Source: Leptolyngbya sp. 'hensonii' (lineage in GTDB: Bacteria; Cyanobacteriota; Cyanobacteriia; GCF-001939115). From it: a stretch of 64,000 nt of DNA. The stretch is from assembly GCF_001939115.1 (NCBI RefSeq), contig NZ_MQTZ01000017.1:134869-198868 (forward strand). The letters are read 5' to 3'. Both the position numbers and the translations under genes were made by a program. The notes under the pieces were generated by a model, which was not told the DNA's origin, did not search any database, and saw only the letters and a program-made list of their open reading frames with translations. The stretch's first letter is position 1. Each line of letters starts with the position of its first letter. This document shows, piece by piece, positions 7,507-47,942 of the stretch.

Positions 7507-8367
7507 ATGGCTTTCGGACCAGCGTCACGTTTAGGGGTGAGTTTATTTGATGAAACTCCTCCAGTTGAGTGGGTACCCGGTCGCTCAGACGAAGAGGCCG
7601 AATCAATCATTCGCGCCGTCTATAGACAAGTCTTGGGTAATGCCTACGTGATGGAAAGTGAGCGGCTCACCGTGCCTGAGTCGCAATTCAAGCGGGGCGA
7701 ATTCAGCGTTCGCGAATTTGTCCGGGCAGTGGCCAAGTCTGATCTCTATCGCTCCCGCTTTTTCACCAGTTGCGCTCGTTATCGGGCGATCGAACTGAAC
7801 TTCAGACACCTGTTGGGTCGGTCCCCACTGGACTTGGAAGAAATGCGGGTCCACAGCACGATTCTGGATACTCAGGGATTTGATGCAGAAATCGACTCCT
7901 ATATCGATAGTGATGAGTACCAGAACACCTTTGGCGAGAGCATTGTTCCCTACATCCGGGGCTACAAAACCGAAGCCTGCCAGAGCATGGTTCAATTTAC
8001 CCACACCTTCCAACTGGTGCGGGGTGCTGCCAGCAGCAGCCTGAAGGGGGATCTGGCCGGTAAGAGCCCCAAGCTCAATTCCCTCGTCATTCAGTCCATC
8101 CCGACCCCAGTGATCTCGCCTGCCGGAGATGGGGCAACCTTCCGCAACCCACCCGTTGTTTCCCGGACCCGCTTGGGTGTGGGTGCTGGTGAAGGCGGTA
8201 AGGTCTATCGGATTGAGGTCACGGGTTACCGGGCGAAGTCCTTCAATAACATCTCCAAGTTCCGCCGTTCCAACCAGGTTTTCCTGGTGCCGTTCGATAA
8301 ACTCTCCCAAGAGTACCAGAGAATCCACCAGCAAGGTGGTGTCATCGCCAGCATTACCCTCGTCTAG
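7507..8367 (+). CDS. cpeC: Phycoerythrin-associated rod linker CpeC
   Basis: The 286-residue protein opens with MAFGPASRLGVSLFDETPP, followed by a phycobilisome linker domain (Pfam PF00427 type, about 20-150) with IIRAVYRQVLGNAYVMESER and AIELNFRHLLGR. It ends with a CpcD-like domain (about 232-285; YRIEVTGYRAK ... KLSQEYQRIHQQGGVIASITLV). This layout and the N-terminus match CpeC of cpeCDE operons, the linker joining phycoerythrin hexamers in the rod. It has a close paralogue on the other strand at 46634-47494. It is the first gene of the operon and is followed by an unusually long 278-bp spacer. Confidence 0.93.
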   Translation: MAFGPASRLGVSLFDETPPVEWVPGRSDEEAESIIRAVYRQVLGNAYVMESERLTVPESQFKRGEFSVREFVRAVAKSDLYRSRFFTSCARYRAIELNFRHLLGRSPLDLEEMRVHSTILDTQGFDAEIDSYIDSDEYQNTFGESIVPYIRGYKTEACQSMVQFTHTFQLVRGAASSSLKGDLAGKSPKLNSLVIQSIPTPVISPAGDGATFRNPPVVSRTRLGVGAGEGGKVYRIEVTGYRAKSFNNISKFRRSNQVFLVPFDKLSQEYQRIHQQGGVIASITLV

Positions 8368-8645: not shown

Positions 8646-9395
8646 ATGGCATCCTCTATTGGTCTTGAGTTATGGCCCGCTAGCAGTTTGGAAGAAGTTC
8701 AGACCATTATTCGGGCAGTTTATAAGCAAGTTTTAGGCAACCCCCACGTCATGGATAGTGAGCGTCTGGTGGCTGCAGAGTCCCAACTGTGCGATCGCTC
8801 CATTACCGTGCGTGAGTTTGTCCGCATCGTAGCCAAGTCTGATTTCTATCGGTCTCGCTATTTCGAGTCCTGTGCTCCCTATCGCTTTGTGGAACTGAAC
8901 TTCCTGCACTTGCTAGGACGGGCTCCCCAGGATCAGCGGGAAGTGTCTGAGCACATTGTTCGCTGCGTTGCTGAAGGCTACGAGGCAGAGATCGATTCTT
9001 ACATCGATAGCGTCGAGTACCAGGCTGCTTTCGGTGAGAACGTCGTTCCTTACTATCGGGGCAGAGCCAGCGAAGCCAACCCCAAACAGGTGGGTTACAA
9101 TCGCATGTTTGTCCTCGATCGAGGTGCAGCACAAATCGACAGTGCCGTGAAATCTTCCCAGTTGGTCTACGCTGTAGCCAGCAACTCGGCCAACACCATT
9201 AAGCCCTCTTCGGCCACGGTGATTGGTTCAGGGACGGAAAAGCGTTTCAAGATTGTGGTGGCTGGCTCCAAATTCGACAGCCCTCGTCGCATCAGCTCAA
9301 CCGAGTACATCGTTCCTGCCAGTAAAATGACTCCGCAAATTCAACGGATTAATCGGACCTCTGGCAAGATTGTCAGCATTACTGAAATTGCTTAG
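8646..9395 (+). CDS. cpeD: Phycoerythrin-associated rod linker CpeD
   Basis: The 249-residue protein starts MASSIGLELWPASSLEEVQT. It has a PBS linker domain (about 12-140, with FVELNFLHLLGRAPQDQREVSEHIV) and a C-terminal CpcD-like domain (about 196-249; FKIVVAGSKFDSPRR ... MTPQIQRINRTSGKIVSITEIA). The start is fixed by TTAGGAGATCACATTTCA before the ATG. Naming as cpeD rests on gene order and my recollection of the family; the cpeD/cpeE split should be checked. It has a paralogue at 45832. A terminator-like hairpin lies just after the stop codon. Confidence 0.87.
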   Translation: MASSIGLELWPASSLEEVQTIIRAVYKQVLGNPHVMDSERLVAAESQLCDRSITVREFVRIVAKSDFYRSRYFESCAPYRFVELNFLHLLGRAPQDQREVSEHIVRCVAEGYEAEIDSYIDSVEYQAAFGENVVPYYRGRASEANPKQVGYNRMFVLDRGAAQIDSAVKSSQLVYAVASNSANTIKPSSATVIGSGTEKRFKIVVAGSKFDSPRRISSTEYIVPASKMTPQIQRINRTSGKIVSITEIA

Positions 9396-9557: not shown

Positions 9558-10316
9558 ATGGCACTTTGGGTAGAAACAGCTTCGGTTGAATTGCGCCCCA
9601 ATTCAACCGAAGACGATTTACAAGCAGTGATTCGGGCCGCATACCGCCAGGTTCTGGGCAATGCCCATGTCATGGATAGCCAACGGCTCACCAGTGCAGA
9701 GTCCATGCTCCGGAATGGGGATATCACCGTCAGAGGGTTCGTCAGAGCGATCGCTCAGTCGGATCTCTATCGGACCCGCTTTTTTGAAAGCTCTTCTCCC
9801 TACCGCTTCATTGAGCTGAACTTCAAACACCTGCTGGGTCGGGCTCCTCAGGACCAGGCTGAGATCTCTGAGCATGTGCAACTTTACAACACCCAGGGTT
9901 ACGAGGCTGAGATTAATTCCTACCTCGACAGCGATGAGTATCAGGCCAACTTTGGTGAAAACACCGTTCCCTCCTACCAGGGTAGTCAGACTCAAACTGG
10001 GATCAAAAATGTTGGATTTAATCGTACATTTGCTCTGGTACGGGGTTTTGCGGCCAACGACATCGGCACCTCTGCCAAGCTGATCAGCGATATTGCTGGC
10101 AATCTCCCAACCAAAATCGCTGCACCTGCAGGGGGTTCAGGCACCTACAGCAACACAGGCAAGCGTTTCCGGGTCACGGTTACGAAGGCCAGTTATGGTC
10201 CTCGGGTCACCCAGAGTGCTGCCACTTTTGAAGTGGGCTACAACCAACTGTCCCAGAAAATTCAGAATATCCAGAAAACTGGGGGCAAAATTCTCAGCAT
10301 TACTGAAGTAGCGTAG
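9558..10316 (+). CDS. cpeE: Phycoerythrin-associated rod linker CpeE
   Basis: The 252-residue protein starts MALWVETASVELRPNSTEDD. It has a PBS linker domain (about 14-145; IRAAYRQVLGNAHVMDSQR, FIELNFKHLLGRAPQDQAEI) and a CpcD-like domain (about 198-252; KRFRVTVTKASYGPRV ... LSQKIQNIQKTGGKILSITEVA). It is preceded by TTTTAGGAGAACTCAGTT. Three tandem phycoerythrin linkers in this order match cpeCDE and suggest up to three stacked phycoerythrin hexamers per rod. No copy of this linker occurs in the second cluster at 44-47 kb. Confidence 0.87.
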   Translation: MALWVETASVELRPNSTEDDLQAVIRAAYRQVLGNAHVMDSQRLTSAESMLRNGDITVRGFVRAIAQSDLYRTRFFESSSPYRFIELNFKHLLGRAPQDQAEISEHVQLYNTQGYEAEINSYLDSDEYQANFGENTVPSYQGSQTQTGIKNVGFNRTFALVRGFAANDIGTSAKLISDIAGNLPTKIAAPAGGSGTYSNTGKRFRVTVTKASYGPRVTQSAATFEVGYNQLSQKIQNIQKTGGKILSITEVA

Positions 10317-10401: not shown

Positions 10402-11037
10402 ATGGCGGCTACTGGATATGACGATCTCATACTGGTGGTTGAAGTCGCTGGTTTACAACAGCCAGCCTTACTGCCAGTGAGCAATTTCACATTCAAAGTT
10501 CCTTATCGTTCGCTCGCTCGCACCCTTGAGTCCATTCGTCGCAGGCAGGGGAAAGTCGTTAACATCACTGTTTTGTCTTCCTCGATTGCCGAGCCTGTTC
10601 CTGCTCCTGACCTGTCAGGCGCTCAGCCTTTTTCTACAGCTCCAGAGAGGGCAACCATCCTATCGGCTGGACCTTCGATCAGTGAAGTCCCCCCACCTAC
10701 GACGGAAAACAATGTCCCACAACCTTCAGAGGTAGCAACTCTGGGAGCCTCGGTTTCAGCATCAGAACTCACACTTGAGTCTGAACCTATCCAGTCGTCT
10801 CCACCCGGATCCTCTTCTGAGGCGGAAGACGTTGCCTCCTCTGGGGCTGACAACCTGATTGCTACGCCACCTCCCTCGGATCACTCCGAAGGGGAGGTCA
10901 GTGACACAACCCCGGCATCGACAACTGCTGAGCCCCCGGCATTAAGCCAGTTCCTGGGAAGGTTTGGCCTGAATGAATTTTTTGCCAAATTCAAACCCAG
11001 TAAGGACAGCGATTCCGACGAAAAACCAGATTCCTGA
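10402..11037 (+). CDS. CpcD-domain protein with long disordered tail; tailed rod-cap linker candidate
   Basis: The 211-residue protein has a CpcD-like domain at about 8-60 (LILVVEVAGLQQ, VPYRSLARTLESIRRRQGKVVNITVL), the fold of the small rod-terminating linker CpcD. Residues 61-180 are low complexity, rich in Ser, Pro, Ala, Thr and Glu, acidic, and lack Cys and Trp. The protein ends in a predicted amphipathic segment (LSQFLGRFGLNEFFAKFKP, 181-199) and a charged tail. It lies between cpeE and cpeS, and its TGA overlaps the cpeS ATG by 1 bp, so it is part of the operon. CpcD proteins are normally about 70-90 residues. A cap on phycoerythrin rods that tethers another partner is my inference; I do not know this protein from described cpeCDESTR operons. 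Confidence 0.85.
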   Translation: MAATGYDDLILVVEVAGLQQPALLPVSNFTFKVPYRSLARTLESIRRRQGKVVNITVLSSSIAEPVPAPDLSGAQPFSTAPERATILSAGPSISEVPPPTTENNVPQPSEVATLGASVSASELTLESEPIQSSPPGSSSEAEDVASSGADNLIATPPPSDHSEGEVSDTTPASTTAEPPALSQFLGRFGLNEFFAKFKPSKDSDSDEKPDS

Positions 11038-11573
11038 TGGACATAATCAACTTTGTTGAACGATCGATTGGGCGCTGGCGATCGCAACGCAGCGCCCATC
11101 ATCTCGCTTTCCGCCATTTTGAAGCGGTTGAATCGGTCATTGATATCGTAGCCCTGGCCCTGGATGACCCGGCAGTACTTGACCTCTGCCATGCCTACAA
11201 TGTAGACCCAGCAACAGCCGTCTCTCCCTTTCGGATGAGTTGGGAAGGGCAATCTGACTGGGATGAAAGTGCGGCCATGCAGGGAACCTGTGTCTTGATT
11301 CCCATTCCCGATCCGAACTCTGCCGCCAATCGTGGCAAGCTGCTTCGCGATCAGGGATACGCCGAGGAGATCGCCGCTGTGGGGGACTACCATCTCACAG
11401 CGGATGGCACCTTTGTTTTGGTGACAGCCTACGATCGAGCGGCAGCTGAAGAGAAAATCTGGTTTGTGAATCCCAATGTCCGTTGCCGGGTCTCTCTGAT
11501 CAAAACCAGTGCAGGCACCGGGGTTGTCACTGCATCATTTTCTTCCGAAATTCGACAGGAGATCAAAAACTGA
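11037..11573 (+). CDS. cpeS: CpeS-type phycoerythrobilin lyase
   Basis: The 178-residue protein starts with IINFVERSIGRWRSQRSAHHL, the CpcS/CpeS signature, followed by barrel strands including GQSDWDESAAMQGTCVLIPIPD, GKLLRDQGYAEE and IWFVNPNVRCRVSLI. CpeS attaches phycoerythrobilin at Cys82/84-type positions of phycoerythrin. Its start overlaps the stop of the upstream CpcD-domain gene (TGATG), which implies coupled translation. It precedes cpeT by 125 bp. The context makes CpeS more likely than CpcS. Confidence 0.92.
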   Translation: MDIINFVERSIGRWRSQRSAHHLAFRHFEAVESVIDIVALALDDPAVLDLCHAYNVDPATAVSPFRMSWEGQSDWDESAAMQGTCVLIPIPDPNSAANRGKLLRDQGYAEEIAAVGDYHLTADGTFVLVTAYDRAAAEEKIWFVNPNVRCRVSLIKTSAGTGVVTASFSSEIRQEIKN

Positions 11574-11698: not shown

Positions 11699-12322
11699 AT
11701 GATGACTACTCCGTCCGATCCTGCTGAAGTCAAATCGAGTGATTTATTCACCCTGGCCCATTGGATGGCAGGGGGATTTAGCAACTATAAACAGGCTTTT
11801 GAAAACCCTAAAAATTACGCCCATATCCACGTTTTCTTTCGTCCGTTACCCTTTGAGTTTTTCTCTGGAATCGGCTTCTATTCAGAACAGGTTTATGACT
11901 ACGATCTGTGGAGTCCCTATCGCCAGGGCGTCCATCGTCTGGTGGACCAGGGGGATCAGATTTACATAGAAAACTATGGCCTGAAAGAGGCTTTTCTCTA
12001 TGCCGGTGCTGCCCGTGAATTAGAGATTTTAAACACCCTTACGATCGACAAGATTGAGCGACGACACCACTGCGCCATGGTCTTCAAGCGGGAGGGAGAT
12101 CTATTTCGGGGCATGGTAGAGCCCGGTAATCTTTGCTTAATTGAACGTCACAATTGTCAGACCTATCTGGTTAGCGATGTGGAAATCACAGAAACAACCT
12201 GGGTCAGCCTAGATAAAGGTATGGATGTCAATACCCACGAACAGGTATGGGGATCAACCTTTGGACCGTTGCGGTTTGAAAAACGGGAGAATTTTGCCCA
12301 TGAAGTCCCCAATATCTTATAA
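11699..12322 (+). CDS. cpeT: CpeT/CpcT-family chromophore lyase
   Basis: The 207-residue protein has the family pattern LAHWMAGGFSNYKQAFENP near the start, then HVFFRPLPFEFFSGIGFYSEQVYDYD and YRQGVHRLVDQGDQIYIENY. CpcT-type members attach bilin to Cys153-type sites of beta subunits; CpeT in phycoerythrin operons is related and acts on phycoerythrin beta. Either ATG (11699 or 11702) could be used. It overlaps cpeR by 23 bp. Confidence 0.92.
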   Translation: MMTTPSDPAEVKSSDLFTLAHWMAGGFSNYKQAFENPKNYAHIHVFFRPLPFEFFSGIGFYSEQVYDYDLWSPYRQGVHRLVDQGDQIYIENYGLKEAFLYAGAARELEILNTLTIDKIERRHHCAMVFKREGDLFRGMVEPGNLCLIERHNCQTYLVSDVEITETTWVSLDKGMDVNTHEQVWGSTFGPLRFEKRENFAHEVPNIL

Positions 12323-12665
12323 AGCTCCCTCAATCGATCTGGAACTGACGGAAGCCAAAATGCTGCCACCTGAGGCTCAAAAAAAGATGCAGTGCTGGAT
12401 TCGGAGCCGTCATTTAATTTGTTCCGGCAACTTCTTTGTGTTTGAGACCGTGGACTACAGTGCGGTTGATCGTTTTTCTGATTGTGTCACAGCTCTAGGC
12501 GGAACAGTGATTTCAGTCGATCCCGTAGACAAAATTTGGATGGGTGGTCATCGCCAGGTGCTCCTATATCGGGCTAAAGCCAGTCTCCATACCCCCTGTC
12601 ATAGTCTGAAGCAATACTGGCTGAAATATGGTAGCTTTCGAACCCGATTTGACGGGCAGGATTAA
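12300..12665 (+). CDS. cpeR: CpeR, activator of phycoerythrin gene expression (copy 1)
   Basis: ATG at 12300 gives 121 residues. The diagnostic CpeR core runs from MLPPEAQKKMQCWIRSRHL through CSGNFFVFETVDYSA, ISVDPVDKIWMGGHRQV and KASLHTPCHSLKQYW. CpeR is needed for cpeBA expression in green light and has no classical DNA-binding domain; the fold is reported to be PP2C-like or uncertain. It overlaps the end of cpeT by 23 bp. A longer reading starting at 12225 would overlap cpeT more and adds unconserved residues. A second copy sits at 45294. Confidence 0.93.
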   Translation: MKSPISYKAPSIDLELTEAKMLPPEAQKKMQCWIRSRHLICSGNFFVFETVDYSAVDRFSDCVTALGGTVISVDPVDKIWMGGHRQVLLYRAKASLHTPCHSLKQYWLKYGSFRTRFDGQD

Positions 12666-12866: not shown

Positions 12867-13907
12867 ATGCCTACTACATTTGTGAATCCCGTTGTGAATC
12901 CTGCAGCGAATTTGGGCGTTAGTTTATTTGATGAAACAGACCCCGTTTATTTGTGGGAATCTGCTTCAGAAGCAGATATTGAAATAGTCATTCGAGCCGT
13001 TTACCGACAGATCCTGGGCAATGCCCACATCATGGAAAGTGAGCGTCTGGCTGTTCCCGAATCCCAACTCAGACAGCGAGAATTCACCGTCCGGGAATTT
13101 GTCCGCCAGGTTGCCAAGTCAGAGTTATACCGATCTCGTTTTTTTGACCCCTGCTCCCGCTATCGGGCGATCGAGCTCAATTTCAAACATTTACTCGGTC
13201 GGGCTCCCCATCACTTTGAAGAGATGCGTCATCACAGCGCCATCCTCGATCAGGCAGGGTTTGCAGCCGATATCGATTCCTATATCGACAGTGATGAGTA
13301 TCAGACTGCTTTTGGTGAGAACATTGTGCCCTATTGCCGGGGTTACAAAACCCAGGCCGGACAACCGATGCTGGAGTTCACCAATATGCTGCAACTGCTG
13401 GGGGGAGCCTGCAGTAGCGATAAAGACCTGACCTCTGGCAATAAGGCTCGCCTGACCCGAGCGCTGATTCTCAACCGGGCCTATGGGATTGAGCCAAGTC
13501 GAAGTGGCAACGATATCCTGTCGGAAGTCTTCGGCAGCGGAGCCCAACCGAGTACAACCTTACCTTTCTCCCAGCCCAGTTCTGGGGCTGAATATGCCCT
13601 GCAACAAAAATATCAAGAGCAGGCAACCTTGGTGGCAGCCCTGCAAAGCCAACTGGCTGAGCTGCGTCCCTTTGCCAGCATGGGGTCTGCCATCATCCGC
13701 CAGGATCAATTTGCCGGTGATACCTCGATAGCCCCCCTGACTTCTTCTGGTATCCGGGTCGCACCAGCAGGCAGCACCCTGCAGCGTCAGGTCGAAGAAC
13801 AGGAAGCCCTGATTGCCAGTCTGCAAGAGCAGTTGGCGGAAGCCCGATCGCTGGCAGCGATCGGAGAAGCTCGTTTGAATAAGTGGCGACGACGGACCTT
13901 CTTTTAG
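12867..13907 (+). CDS. Phycobilisome rod linker with coiled-coil repeat C-terminus
   Basis: The 346-residue protein has a PBS linker domain (about 35-165; VIRAVYRQILGNAHIMESERL, AIELNFKHLLGRAPHHFEEM) closest to CpeC, including LGVSLFDETDPV. After a variable region (200-245) it has two similar segments, about 249-276 (YQEQATLVAALQSQLAEL) and 309-336 (VEEQEALIASLQEQLAEA), each followed by a short A/G/S stretch. The tail is basic (LNKWRRRTFF). There is no CpcD domain. The repeats predict a coiled coil, so the free end of the rod may bind something other than another hexamer, such as the core or a membrane. It lies 201 bp after cpeR with its own AGGAGA site and may have its own promoter. Confidence 0.88.
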   Translation: MPTTFVNPVVNPAANLGVSLFDETDPVYLWESASEADIEIVIRAVYRQILGNAHIMESERLAVPESQLRQREFTVREFVRQVAKSELYRSRFFDPCSRYRAIELNFKHLLGRAPHHFEEMRHHSAILDQAGFAADIDSYIDSDEYQTAFGENIVPYCRGYKTQAGQPMLEFTNMLQLLGGACSSDKDLTSGNKARLTRALILNRAYGIEPSRSGNDILSEVFGSGAQPSTTLPFSQPSSGAEYALQQKYQEQATLVAALQSQLAELRPFASMGSAIIRQDQFAGDTSIAPLTSSGIRVAPAGSTLQRQVEEQEALIASLQEQLAEARSLAAIGEARLNKWRRRTFF

Positions 13908-13919
13908 GAGTCAATGATC

Positions 13920-14249
13920 ATGAATCCAGGTGTAATCGCGGCGATCGTCTATGGCATCCTTGCCATTGTGGGCGGCATCATGGGTTACGTTCAGGCAAAA
14001 AGTAAGATTTCTCTCTTGGCTGGTTGTGGCTGTGGCCTGCTGTTACTGGTAAGTGCCCTCTTGCAATTTCAAGGTCAATCCTGGGGACTTATCTTTGCCG
14101 TAGCGGTGACCCTCATTCTGTTACTGGCATTTGTGATGCGATGGATCAAAACCCGCAAGTTTATGCCTGCCGGATTGATGCTGATTCTGGGCATTCCAGC
14201 GCTGGGAGTTATGATTAGCCAGATGGGGATCCTCACAGCACTCAAATGA
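13920..14249 (+). CDS. TMEM14-family small membrane protein
   Basis: The ATG at 13920 gives 109 residues; it is better spaced from AGGAG than the ATG at 13914. The protein has four predicted membrane helices (about 4-22, 30-50, 54-73, 80-101) with the TMEM14 pattern AIVYGILAIVGGIMGYVQAKSKISLLAGCGCG. Plant members act in plastid fatty-acid export; the bacterial role is unknown. It lies 12 bp after the coiled-coil linker gene and overlaps the next gene by 4 bp (ATGA). Confidence 0.85.
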   Translation: MNPGVIAAIVYGILAIVGGIMGYVQAKSKISLLAGCGCGLLLLVSALLQFQGQSWGLIFAVAVTLILLLAFVMRWIKTRKFMPAGLMLILGIPALGVMISQMGILTALK

Positions 14250-44396: not shown

Positions 44397-45137
44397 CTAG
44401 AACCCAATCAGGATGGATAGAAACATAATCACAAGGATTGCAACCCCAAGCCCAATCGTACCCTGCCCAATTTTCTGGAGCAGTTGGGGCGGATTCTTTT
44501 GCCAGTCCCAACGATAGTAATCCAGACGAGCAGCGCCTTTCCTACCCATCAGAATTGGCTTGGGCAATTTATCCCGATAATCAGTGCCGTAACGAGCCAT
44601 CCGGGCAAAAGGCAGCTCACCTTGAGTCCGTTGGGGGAGAATCCGTCGGCGTTGATAGGGAACCGTGTTATCTCCAAAGTTGTCCAGGTATTCTTCACTA
44701 CTCAGCAAGGCATCAATAAAACTCTGTAGTCCCTTGGTAGCCAGAACAATCGACCAGGCGAGCTTTTCCTGATTGTTATAAACGCTGCGACCCAGAATTC
44801 GCTGAATGCAAATCTCAACGCAACGGTAGTTATTATTGCTCTCATAAACCAGTCGTCGGAAGGAATCAGAAGTGGCCAGTCCTCGAATAAAGTCCTTAAC
44901 GGTGATTTGCCCCACTCGCAGTTGGGACTCCAAAAAACGCTGACGATGGTAGGCCAGCATCTGTTGCTCATTATAAATCTGGCGGTAAGCTGCCTGGATC
45001 AAGACATCCATATCCACAGGAGACAGGAGATTACTGGTGGTATAAATTCTGGGTTGTTCATCACCGGGTACTTCAAACCCCTCCACTCGATGGTTACGAG
45101 ATAAAGGTTCGTATTCTAAGAGAGGAATCGACATCAC
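44397..45137 (-). CDS. cpcL: CpcL (CpcG2-type) membrane-anchored rod linker
   Basis: The 246-residue protein has a CpcG-type linker domain (about 35-185; VLIQAAYRQIYNEQQMLAYHRQ, VEICIQRILGRSVYNNQEKLAWSI) and ends in a single hydrophobic helix (about 222-245, IGLGVAILVIMFLSILIGF). That terminal helix distinguishes CpcL from core-binding CpcG1. CpcL builds rods without a core that pass energy mainly to photosystem I. It is a known CcaS/CcaR target in other strains. It lies 156 bp after cpeR copy 2. Confidence 0.93.
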   Translation of the reverse strand: MMSIPLLEYEPLSRNHRVEGFEVPGDEQPRIYTTSNLLSPVDMDVLIQAAYRQIYNEQQMLAYHRQRFLESQLRVGQITVKDFIRGLATSDSFRRLVYESNNNYRCVEICIQRILGRSVYNNQEKLAWSIVLATKGLQSFIDALLSSEEYLDNFGDNTVPYQRRRILPQRTQGELPFARMARYGTDYRDKLPKPILMGRKGAARLDYYRWDWQKNPPQLLQKIGQGTIGLGVAILVIMFLSILIGF

Positions 45138-45293
45138 AGTACTCCCAAGCTTAAAAGATGAATTACATTCTTAAGGAACGGTCTGGATGCAGTTGACCAA
45201 ACTGCAATGGGTTAAAGAGAATTGAGTCATCACTCATCTTTCTCTACAACACTGAAGCAACATGAACTGCCTTCTGATTCAGGTGTCCATGGA

Positions 45294-45644
45294 TTAAACT
45301 CGTTGATCAAATCTCGTCCGGAAACTACCGTGTTTGATCCAATACTGTTTCAAGTCATGATGAGGGGTATGCAAGCTGGCTCTGGCATGATATACAATCA
45401 CCTGGCGACGATCGCTCATCCAAATCTTGCCAACTGGATCCACAGAAATCACGCTGCCTCCCAAGACTGAAATACAGTGACTGAATCGCTCCAGAGCTGA
45501 ATAATCTACTGTTTCAAAGACAAAGAAGTTCCCTGAGCAAATTACATGGCGACTTCGAATCCAGGACTGAATCTTCTTTTGAGCAGCAGGTGGCAGCATT
45601 TCCAGGGTGGGAAGCATCAGATGACTTCGAACCGAGCATTTCAT
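45294..45644 (-). CDS. cpeR: CpeR, phycoerythrin gene activator (copy 2)
   Basis: ATG at 45644 gives 116 residues; the start could lie a few codons either way, and MLPPAAQKKIQSWIRSRHV marks the conserved core. The segments CSGNFFVFETVDYSA, ISVDPVGKIWMSDRRQV and ASLHTPHHDLKQYWI match copy 1 at 12300 but with many substitutions. This is a diverged paralogue rather than a recent duplicate. It is located between a CpeD-like linker and cpcL. In N. punctiforme a cpeR is part of the CcaR-controlled operon, which fits. Confidence 0.92.
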   Translation of the reverse strand: MKCSVRSHLMLPTLEMLPPAAQKKIQSWIRSRHVICSGNFFVFETVDYSALERFSHCISVLGGSVISVDPVGKIWMSDRRQVIVYHARASLHTPHHDLKQYWIKHGSFRTRFDQRV

Positions 45645-45831
45645 ACGTAGAATCACGTCTTGCGATAGAGAACCTGCCCTAACTGAACAGCTAGAGCAGG
45701 AAAGGGAGTAGGAGGAATCGTAGGGAGATTTTAGAGATCATCATCTGCCAGGATCACAGGGACGGCATCATCGTTATGTCACTGGAAAAACCAGATATCA
45801 GATCATCAGAGTGACTCAGATCAAGTCTGGA

Positions 45832-46590
45832 TTAGGTCACTTCAGTAATACTGACGATCGTTCCAGATGTCCGATTAATGCGCTGAATTTGCGGGGTCAT
45901 ATTGTCCCCAGAAACCAGGTATGTTGTAGTACTGATCCGCCGGGGACTGTCAAACCTGGAGCCCCGCACAAGAATCTTAAATTTCTTCTTGCTGGCCTCT
46001 CCTGAACCACCTAAATTAGTGCTAGCTGGTGCAATTCTGTTGCTGCTGTTAGTCGCAATCGCATACACCAATTGAGAAGACTTGACGGCACTATTTACTT
46101 GAGAGTAGCCCCGATCCAGTGCAAACATTCGGTTGTAAGTGATCTGGCTTTGACCCACTGCAGTTTTTGCACCTTGATTGTAGGGGACGATATGCTCACC
46201 AAACTTAGTCTGGTACTCGTCACTATCAAGGTACGAATCGATTTCTGCATCGTATCCTTCTTCAATGCAGCGCACGATATGCTCTGAAACCTCAGCCTGG
46301 GACTGGGGAGGCCGTCCTAAAAAGTGCATGAAATTCAATTCCACGAAGCGATAGGGAGCGCAGGTCTCAAAATATCGGGAACGGTAAAAATCAGATTTCC
46401 CAACAGCCCGCACAAATTCACGCACAGAAATGCTGCGATCGCTTAACTGGGATTCAGCAGCGACCTGCCGTTCACTCTCCATCACATGCGGATTACCTAG
46501 CACTTGTCGATAAACAGCTCGAATGACAGCCTGCACCTCTACCGAAGAGCTATCTGGCCAAAGTTCTGATGAATTAATTTCAATGCTCAT
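45832..46590 (-). CDS. cpeD: CpeD-like phycoerythrin rod linker (copy 2)
   Basis: The 252-residue protein is clearly paralogous to the linker at 8646: FVELNFMHFLGRPPQSQAEVSEHIVRCIEEGYDAEIDSYLDSDEYQ in the linker domain and FKILVRGSRFDSPRRISTT ... MTPQIQRINRTSGTIVSITEV in the CpcD-like domain. It lacks recognisable frame damage. It starts 43 bp after the cpeC paralogue. Its role would be rods built under CcaS/CcaR control. Confidence 0.87.
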   Translation of the reverse strand: MSIEINSSELWPDSSSVEVQAVIRAVYRQVLGNPHVMESERQVAAESQLSDRSISVREFVRAVGKSDFYRSRYFETCAPYRFVELNFMHFLGRPPQSQAEVSEHIVRCIEEGYDAEIDSYLDSDEYQTKFGEHIVPYNQGAKTAVGQSQITYNRMFALDRGYSQVNSAVKSSQLVYAIATNSSNRIAPASTNLGGSGEASKKKFKILVRGSRFDSPRRISTTTYLVSGDNMTPQIQRINRTSGTIVSITEVT

Positions 46591-46633
46591 GATTTACTTC
46601 CTTAATTGCATGGGTTAATTCAACGCTGTTCAT

Positions 46634-47494
46634 TCACACAGGCGTAATACTGGCAATCACTCCCCCCGCTTGATGGATCTTTTGGTAGGTTGCTGAAAGC
46701 TGGTTGAAGGGCACCAGATAGATCTGGTTACTGAAGCGAAAACGGGAGACCGGCCTGGTCTTGCTAGCACGGTAGCCCGTCGCCTCCACCCGGTACACTT
46801 TGCCTTGCTCATCTGCCCCGGTACCCAGGCGGGTCCGGGCACTACCCAAGGGGTTACGGAATGCAGATCCTGGGCTGATCGGTGAAACTACAGCCGTGGG
46901 CACAGACTGGATCAGCAAGCTGTTCAGGCGAGGAGCCTTCCCGGCCAAATTACCCTTCAAACTGCTACTTGAGGCTCCCCGTACTAGTTCAAAAGTATGG
47001 GTGAACTGCACCATACTCTGGCAAGCCTCTGTCTTATAGCCCCGGATATAGGGCACAATATTTTCTCCAAAATGGGTTTGATACTCATCGCTATTGAGGT
47101 AAGAATCAATCTCAGCTCCAAAACCTCGCGTATCGAGAATCATGCTGTGGGAGCGCATTTCTTCCAGATTAAGGGGAGGGCGGCCCAGCAGGTGGCGAAA
47201 GTTTAATTCGATCGCCCGGTAACGAGCACAACTGGTAAAGAATCGAGAATGATAGAGGTCCGACTTGGCTACTGCTCTCACAAACTCACGGACACTGAGT
47301 TCAACTCGCTTAAACTGAGACTCAGGAACCGTCAAGCGTTCACTGTCCATCACATAGGCATTGCCTAAAACTTGCCGATAGACTGCTCGAATGATCTGCT
47401 CCCGCTCACCATCCGAACTACCAGGCACCCACTCCACCGGGGCAGTTTCTTCAAATAGGCTAACTCCCAAACGGGAGGCTGGTCCAAAAGCCAT
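46634..47494 (-). CDS. cpeC: CpeC-like phycoerythrin rod linker (copy 2)
   Basis: The 286-residue protein matches the first CpeC almost end to end and has the same length: MAFGPASRLGVSLFEETAPVEWVPG, AIELNFRHLLGRPPLNLEEMRSH and the CpcD-like end YLVPFNQLSATYQKIHQAGGVIASITPV. It is the first gene of the minus-strand set cpeC-cpeD-cpeR-cpcL-ccaS. The CcaR G-box lies about 210 bp upstream of its start. Confidence 0.92.
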   Translation of the reverse strand: MAFGPASRLGVSLFEETAPVEWVPGSSDGEREQIIRAVYRQVLGNAYVMDSERLTVPESQFKRVELSVREFVRAVAKSDLYHSRFFTSCARYRAIELNFRHLLGRPPLNLEEMRSHSMILDTRGFGAEIDSYLNSDEYQTHFGENIVPYIRGYKTEACQSMVQFTHTFELVRGASSSSLKGNLAGKAPRLNSLLIQSVPTAVVSPISPGSAFRNPLGSARTRLGTGADEQGKVYRVEATGYRASKTRPVSRFRFSNQIYLVPFNQLSATYQKIHQAGGVIASITPV

Positions 47495-47715: not shown

Positions 47716-47942
47716 AATGAGTGGAATCAATAAATCTTGAAATTCTGCAATATTTGTTCTCAAAACTTTTGCAGGAAAAGGGATTTCCCAGGTTAGCCAT
47801 TCCCGATAAAACAGAAATTTGGGGGGCAAATTCCCATAGAATTGTGGTGATGAGCAATCCTCGCTGCTGGGTAAATAGGGGCATAGGAAGGAGGAGCGTT
47901 CAATCCAACAAATTGCTTTTATCTTGCCTCACTGCCGAATTT

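Follow-up and report, generated by a model that had tools for sequence, protein, structure and literature searches.

The locus and its genes

The window, a 64,000-nucleotide stretch of the genome of Leptolyngbya sp. 'hensonii' (contig NZ_MQTZ01000017.1), carries phycoerythrin (PE) antenna genes in the order cpeC-cpeD-cpeE-(CpcD-like, 211 aa)-cpeS-cpeT-cpeR-like-tail linker-Tmemb_14 (Table 1). The tail linker is the subject of this analysis, and its ATG is preceded by an AGGAG-like sequence resembling a ribosome-binding site. The gene called cpeR-like in this order encodes a protein that we take to be a CpeR relative.

Table 1. Genes and protein features at the tail-linker locus (window coordinates)
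Feature	Position	Strand	Basis or remark
CpeC-like rod linker (PF00427 + CpcD)	7507..8367	+	Pfam
CpeD-like rod linker (PF00427 + CpcD)	8646..9395	+	Pfam
CpeE-like rod linker (PF00427 + CpcD)	9558..10316	+	Pfam
CpeS-family lyase	11037..11573	+	PF09367, E 8.6e-60
CpeT-family lyase	11699..12322	+	PF06206, E 3.2e-68
CpeR-like regulator (name assumed), directly upstream of the tail linker	12360..12665	+	no Pfam match
Tail-bearing PE linker gene	12867..13907	+	intact ORF, 346 aa plus stop
PF00427 phycobilisome linker domain, CpeC-like, residues 34-158	12966..13340	+	Pfam, E 2.6e-51
CpeC-type extension 3' of the linker domain, residues 159-222	13341..13532	+	alignment, model helices
Tail helix 1 / repeat copy 1, residues 240-281	13584..13709	+	AF2, heptad a/d conservation
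Hinge, variable, low-confidence, residues 282-303	13710..13775	+	AF2, column conservation
Tail helix 2 / repeat copy 2, residues 304-345	13776..13901	+	AF2, heptad a/d conservation
C-terminal motif EARSLAAIGEARLNKWRRRTFF, residues 325-346	13839..13904	+	common to non-linker proteins

The linker domain is nearest to the CpeC type, being 63% identical over residues 10-200 to the CpeC encoded in the window, and the PF00427 part of the AF2 model matches 3pru with a Z score of 26.2 and an rmsd of 0.8 over 137 residues. The narrow NCBIfam CpcG1-4 models match the linker domain only, at 91-116 bits against cut-offs of 420-440, which is little above CpeC. The CpeC-type extension has model helices at residues 169-182, 193-201 and 214-222 and closes with a conserved 'ILAEVF' helix. 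Pfam found no CpcD domain (PF01383) in the 346-aa protein; all three upstream cpe linkers have one. Since the CpcD domain is absent, the tail linker would not stack its hexamer onto the next disc, and a CpeC-like domain joined to a coiled-coil tail cannot extend a rod in the CpcC or CpeC way. The earlier note had proposed the CpeC-like domain, the missing CpcD domain and the blocked rod extension, and each was borne out.

The neighbouring frame at 10402-11037 (+) encodes a CpcD-like domain barely above the Pfam cut-off, then a low-complexity stretch of about 120 residues rich in Ser, Pro and Glu that is followed by a short amphipathic end, and may be an odd rod-capping-like protein. Relatives of it occur in L050, L061 and L083, where a homologue of the Tmemb_14 (TMEM14-like) membrane protein gene, directly 3' of the tail linker in the window (13914-14249, +), also lies near the tail linker. 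A second light-harvesting cluster of the window (44397-47494, -) encodes CpcL, CpeR-like, CpeD-like and CpeC-like proteins, and its CpcL (44397-45137) ends in a hydrophobic transmembrane helix. This cluster is divergent from a gene at 47721 for a response regulator of the OmpR type, which may be a chromatic acclimation switch like CcaR.

The source genome encodes two CpcG-like and three CpcL-like proteins, several CpcC/CpeC linkers, PE proteins and an ApcE of 1118 residues. The earlier note asked whether homologues replace cpcG or cpcC; in this genome such a replacement is not supported, as both kinds are still present together with ApcE, and the tail linker is therefore an addition. The tail module has no second copy in the source genome. 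Among cpc genes elsewhere in the same genome (L177, C17:128864-129322) lies a 237-codon frame matching PF00502 (phycobilisome proteins), which is longer than normal subunits and divergent from them.

Sequence and predicted structure of the tail

The repeat reported earlier at residues 249-276 and 309-336 is genuine. The two copies are identical at 14 of 28 positions and their local score of 79 lies above that of every one of 5000 shuffles (mean 22.5, sd 4.3, maximum 49). The unit is longer than first described, at about 45-50 residues, and includes an A-x-x-G-E-A-x-x-N-K-W end that is eroded in copy 1 of the window protein. The end of the protein was correctly described as basic, with a net charge of +4 over the last 22 residues.

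The AF2 model of the full chain, built with 28 homologues, gives the PF00427 fold at high confidence, a poorly predicted middle, two long tail helices at a pLDDT of about 63-81 and a low-confidence hinge. The tail modelled alone with 45 homologues has helices at fragment positions 35-79 and 101-141, with a pLDDT mostly of 76-82. Both models are monomers of modest confidence (mean pLDDT 69.5 and 65.9; pTM 0.44 and 0.42), and at these pTM values the placement of the two tail helices relative to each other is uncertain. A disordered and unconserved tail would have refuted the earlier note's reading, but this tail is neither wholly disordered nor unconserved: its two helices are mostly at a pLDDT of 70-82, and it is kept in dozens of genomes.

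The helices form a hydrophilic coiled coil rich in Q, E and R. A membrane-anchor tail like that of CpcL was ruled out, as the tail has no hydrophobic helix, and direct membrane insertion is therefore unlikely. A Pfam match of the tail to Sec2p (27.5 bits, under the cut-off of 28.5) was taken as generic, like other coiled-coil matches. A sequence-profile search with the tail gave no convincing match, and a PDB fold search with the tail alone gave nothing significant (best E 0.8), an absence that excludes no family.

Conservation and domain number among relatives

Of 388 genomes in the class, about 30-34 encode a linker with this tail, and a degenerate scan across named genomes identified 60 loci. 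These belong to Nostoc, Pseudanabaena, Leptolyngbya, Leptothoe, Adonisia, Symploca, Hormoscilla, Mastigocoleus, Pleurocapsa and other genera. The order-level search covered the source genome alone, as the order contains no other. Viral contigs held no relatives, and PHROGs gave no match.

In the alignments L259, L263, L266, A270 and G273 of copy 1 and I316, L319 and W340 of copy 2 are invariant, and A326, G333, R336, N338, K339 and R343 are nearly so. Most of these residues follow the 3-4 heptad spacing expected of a coiled-coil core, and the best-conserved ones (I-L-L-A-A-G-L-W) sit at heptad a/d positions. Mean column entropy in helix 1 is 0.55 at a/d positions vs 1.75 elsewhere, and 4 of 20000 random position sets were as low. 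The corresponding values for helix 2 are 0.79 vs 1.45, with 171 of 20000 random sets reaching that level. Moving the helix 2 register by +3 also lands on positions with a/d spacing, and the resulting value of 0.68 is as low as that of the assigned register. The tail thus has a conserved heptad a/d core, the mark of a packed coiled coil. The most variable stretches are residues 223-240 and the hinge, and the consensus of the tail end is IGEARLNKWRxRxF. The family plan is one to three copies of PF00427 followed by a two-copy coiled-coil module ending IGEAxLNKWRxRxF, which the window protein fits.

The single tail is preceded by one PF00427 domain in 40 of the 60 named loci, by two in 16 and by three in 3, so that 19 of the 60 relatives have more than the one domain of the window copy. 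Multidomain (two- or three-domain) linkers without CpcD in crown cyanobacteria include L077, L097 and L100, and a further set comprises L057, L065, L075, L076, L079, L082, L098 and L109. Leptolyngbya sp. Heron Island J is one example of a strain with a two- or three-domain tail linker. The copy in the lichen-associated Nostoc (Peltigera cyanobiont 210A, L108:9001) has a broken frame in which the tail is detectable and the linker domain is not.

A quick tree places the tail-proximal PF00427 domain with CpeC rather than with CpcC or CpcG, with weak local support. The N-terminal PF00427 domains group apart from it, single-domain proteins occur among both kinds, and many nodes are weakly supported. 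The pattern looks as if a two-domain ancestor had lost one or the other PF00427 domain.

Multidomain linkers without CpcD have been described as lost in crown cyanobacteria (PMC12525769, PMC10696076), with Glr1262 and Glr2806 called unique to Gloeobacter (PMC12525769) and CpcN exclusive to Gloeobacteria (PMC10696076). Judged by domain content, the CpcD-less multidomain plan does exist in crown cyanobacteria, which does not imply direct homology to the linkers of Gloeobacteria.

Association with phycoerythrin

In 47 of the 60 named loci, as in the window, the tail linker comes after a cpeR homologue of the same strand, and cpeS/cpeT lie just upstream in 39. A close homologue of PE alpha is encoded in 28 of 34 tail-linker genomes vs 86 of 354 others (Fisher P 2.6e-11, which is indicative only, since the genomes are not independent and relatedness is uncorrected). 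Six tail-linker genomes have no PE alpha match, of which one is weakly tail-like and several are incomplete; therefore, PE may not be the sole ligand.

The tail module on other proteins

The tail profile also matches other proteins at their C-termini, and these have no linker domain. Some of them have an N-terminal ribbon-helix-helix (RHH), assigned to PF01402 in several cases, and a long tandem coiled coil; others lack the RHH. One protein of 284 aa (L140:724-1575) has an HMA_2 domain and two module copies at its end. Composition bias of coiled coils was rejected as the cause of these matches by means of a motif-only profile made from the last 23 columns of the linkers alone, with the heptad-rich part excluded. 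Its best RHH/coiled-coil matches are to the extreme C-terminus, with E values of 2e-7 to 1e-5 (Z = 300,000), with weaker matches up to E about 0.7, and 50 shuffled sets gave no match.

Four of the 20 non-linker module loci examined (L189, L192, L200 and L205) lie among cpc genes. The RHH gene is between two CpeS-family lyase genes adjoining cpcBA in L189, L192 and L200, and is also near cpcG in L189 and L192. The protein at L192:7904-9370 has an RHH and a long tandem coiled coil ending IGEAxLNKWR, and it and its counterparts in L189, L200, L205, L079, L098 and L106 are encoded among cpc or PE genes. In Hormoscilla (L079) and two Symploca (L098, L106) the gene of an RHH/module protein is about 3 kb past the tail linker; these were found as flanks of the tail linker and are therefore not independent evidence of enrichment. 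The two protein types show no overlap across the 388 genomes (34 with the tail linker and 29 with a non-linker module protein), so the RHH protein itself is not an obligatory partner of the tail linker. The ribbon-helix-helix fold is an obligate dimer, and its occurrence with the module fits a dimeric coiled coil and tail-to-tail pairing.

In Coleofasciculus sp. LEGE 07092 (L105:8236-9372) the tail is carried by a CpcC-like linker whose gene lies next to phycocyanin-like genes, and both repeat copies have the full GEAxxNKW end. This protein resembles a linker of the PecC type that lacks CpcD, and the tail on a CpcC-like domain suggests a second fusion.

Function of the tail linker

A PF00427 domain followed by a C-terminal extension other than CpcD attaches the rod base to the core in CpcG (PMC8448738) and to the membrane in CpcL (PMC9415938). 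The tail linker has the same plan, which suggests a PE rod-base (tethering) linker. The reading preferred here, plausible but tentative, is that this linker is docked by its coiled coil, most likely by pairing of tails, which would bring PE discs together in clusters. Each PF00427 domain would, like that of CpeC, occupy the central cavity of one PE hexamer. Docking would fall to the C-terminal extension, as it does in CpcG and CpcL, here a two-helix coiled-coil module ending IGEAxLNKWR. Pairing of the tails into a two- or four-helix bundle would bring PE hexamers side by side, and a linker pair would hold two hexamers with one domain each, four, or up to six with three PF00427 domains. We infer the hexamer binding from the identity to CpeC and from solved homologues, and the clustering by analogy with the multidomain linkers of Gloeobacteria, which hold hexamers next to one another (PMC12525769, PMC10696076). 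The conserved heptad core argues that the conserved surface of the tail is one of helix-helix packing. The two tail helices of the same chain could also pack on each other, which would leave another surface for the core.

Core binding is the main rival to tail-tail pairing, and appears unlikely. The tail linker would then be a PE-specific rod-core linker, with the tail binding the allophycocyanin core or ApcE as the CpcG extension does for phycocyanin. It shares the CpcG plan (PF00427 plus an extension, no CpcD), and in Foldseek the red algal linkers LRC2 and LRC3, which likewise have PF00427 and then a long helical extension, give whole-model alignments of 341-366 columns that span both parts at a TM of about 0.41. 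LRC3 chains recur for the tail alone, although not significantly (E 1.6-3.1), and the tail has no sequence match to them; the resemblance is taken as a suggestive lead rather than as homology. Tail profiles searched against the PDB up to E 10 retrieved no LRC, CpcG or ApcE chain, the tail has no sequence relation to CpcG extensions, and the linker domain belongs with CpeC. The source genome already has CpcG-like proteins, and the module also ends proteins that have no linker domain at all.

That last feature could instead point to an assembly or targeting factor absent from the finished antenna, in which the tail recruits the linker via a partner common to the RHH/coiled-coil proteins. The motif ends very different proteins, some of them encoded between CpeS-family genes beside cpcBA or 3 kb from a tail linker, as described above; however, no common partner was found and in the 388-genome sample the two protein types share no genome. 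This reading is improbable. A similarly low probability attaches to a rod-membrane or rod-photosystem linker, whose basic, Trp-containing amphipathic end would lie on the thylakoid or PSI and serve core-less PE rods in parallel with CpcL. The cpcL gene is directly downstream of the tail linker in 9 of the 60 loci, in some genomes of the Pseudanabaena/Leptolyngbya type, and the amphipathic basic end would suit such a role. However, the pairing with cpcL is absent in most Nostoc loci, the tail has no hydrophobic segment where CpcL ends in a transmembrane helix, and the conserved residues are those of the heptad core rather than of a lipid face. A decaying CpeC paralogue, in which CpcD was swapped for a coiled coil of low value, is scarcely credible: one lichen Nostoc copy is broken, but the tail is among the conserved parts across many genera, the position after cpeR is constant, and family-wide conservation already refutes decay.

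The protein resembles several known systems in part. It shares PF00427 and a gene cluster with the CpcC/CpeC rod linkers, but they carry CpcD where it has a coiled coil. The multidomain linkers of Gloeobacteria (Glr1262, Glr2806/CpcJ, CpcN) also lack CpcD, and some tail-linker relatives likewise have several PF00427 domains; in contrast, the window copy has a single domain, the Gloeobacteria linkers have no match to the tail, and the relatives sit in PE clusters of crown cyanobacteria. The cyanobacterial RHH proteins have the C-terminal coiled coil and IGEAxLNKWR end, and some lie in cpc or PE clusters, but they lack PF00427. No earlier description of the tail linker was found in the open-access literature, and a name in subscription papers on chromatic acclimation is possible. 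'CpeG' of Gloeobacter (Glr1268) is possibly a namesake.

The observation is real and more general than first described, and what we infer is the function. The way in which discs are joined sets the shape of the antenna. Since one-, two- and three-domain CpcD-less PE linkers occur in many crown genera, mostly after cpeR, an architecture specific to PE may have escaped notice. The tail is found on the relatives and on unrelated proteins, some encoded among antenna genes, and is therefore probably an overlooked docking or clustering module. A wider reading, possible but doubtful, is that the IGEAxLNKWR end is an unrecognised docking module of both PE linkers holding one to three hexamers and RHH proteins of phycobilisome clusters, with hexamer clusters in crown cyanobacteria formed via a common receptor or self-pairing. 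The C-terminal module offers a concrete experimental handle and points to an uncharacterised RHH/coiled-coil protein in some cpc clusters. If the docking-module reading is true, crown cyanobacteria would build hexamer clusters by a route thought to be confined to Gloeobacteria.
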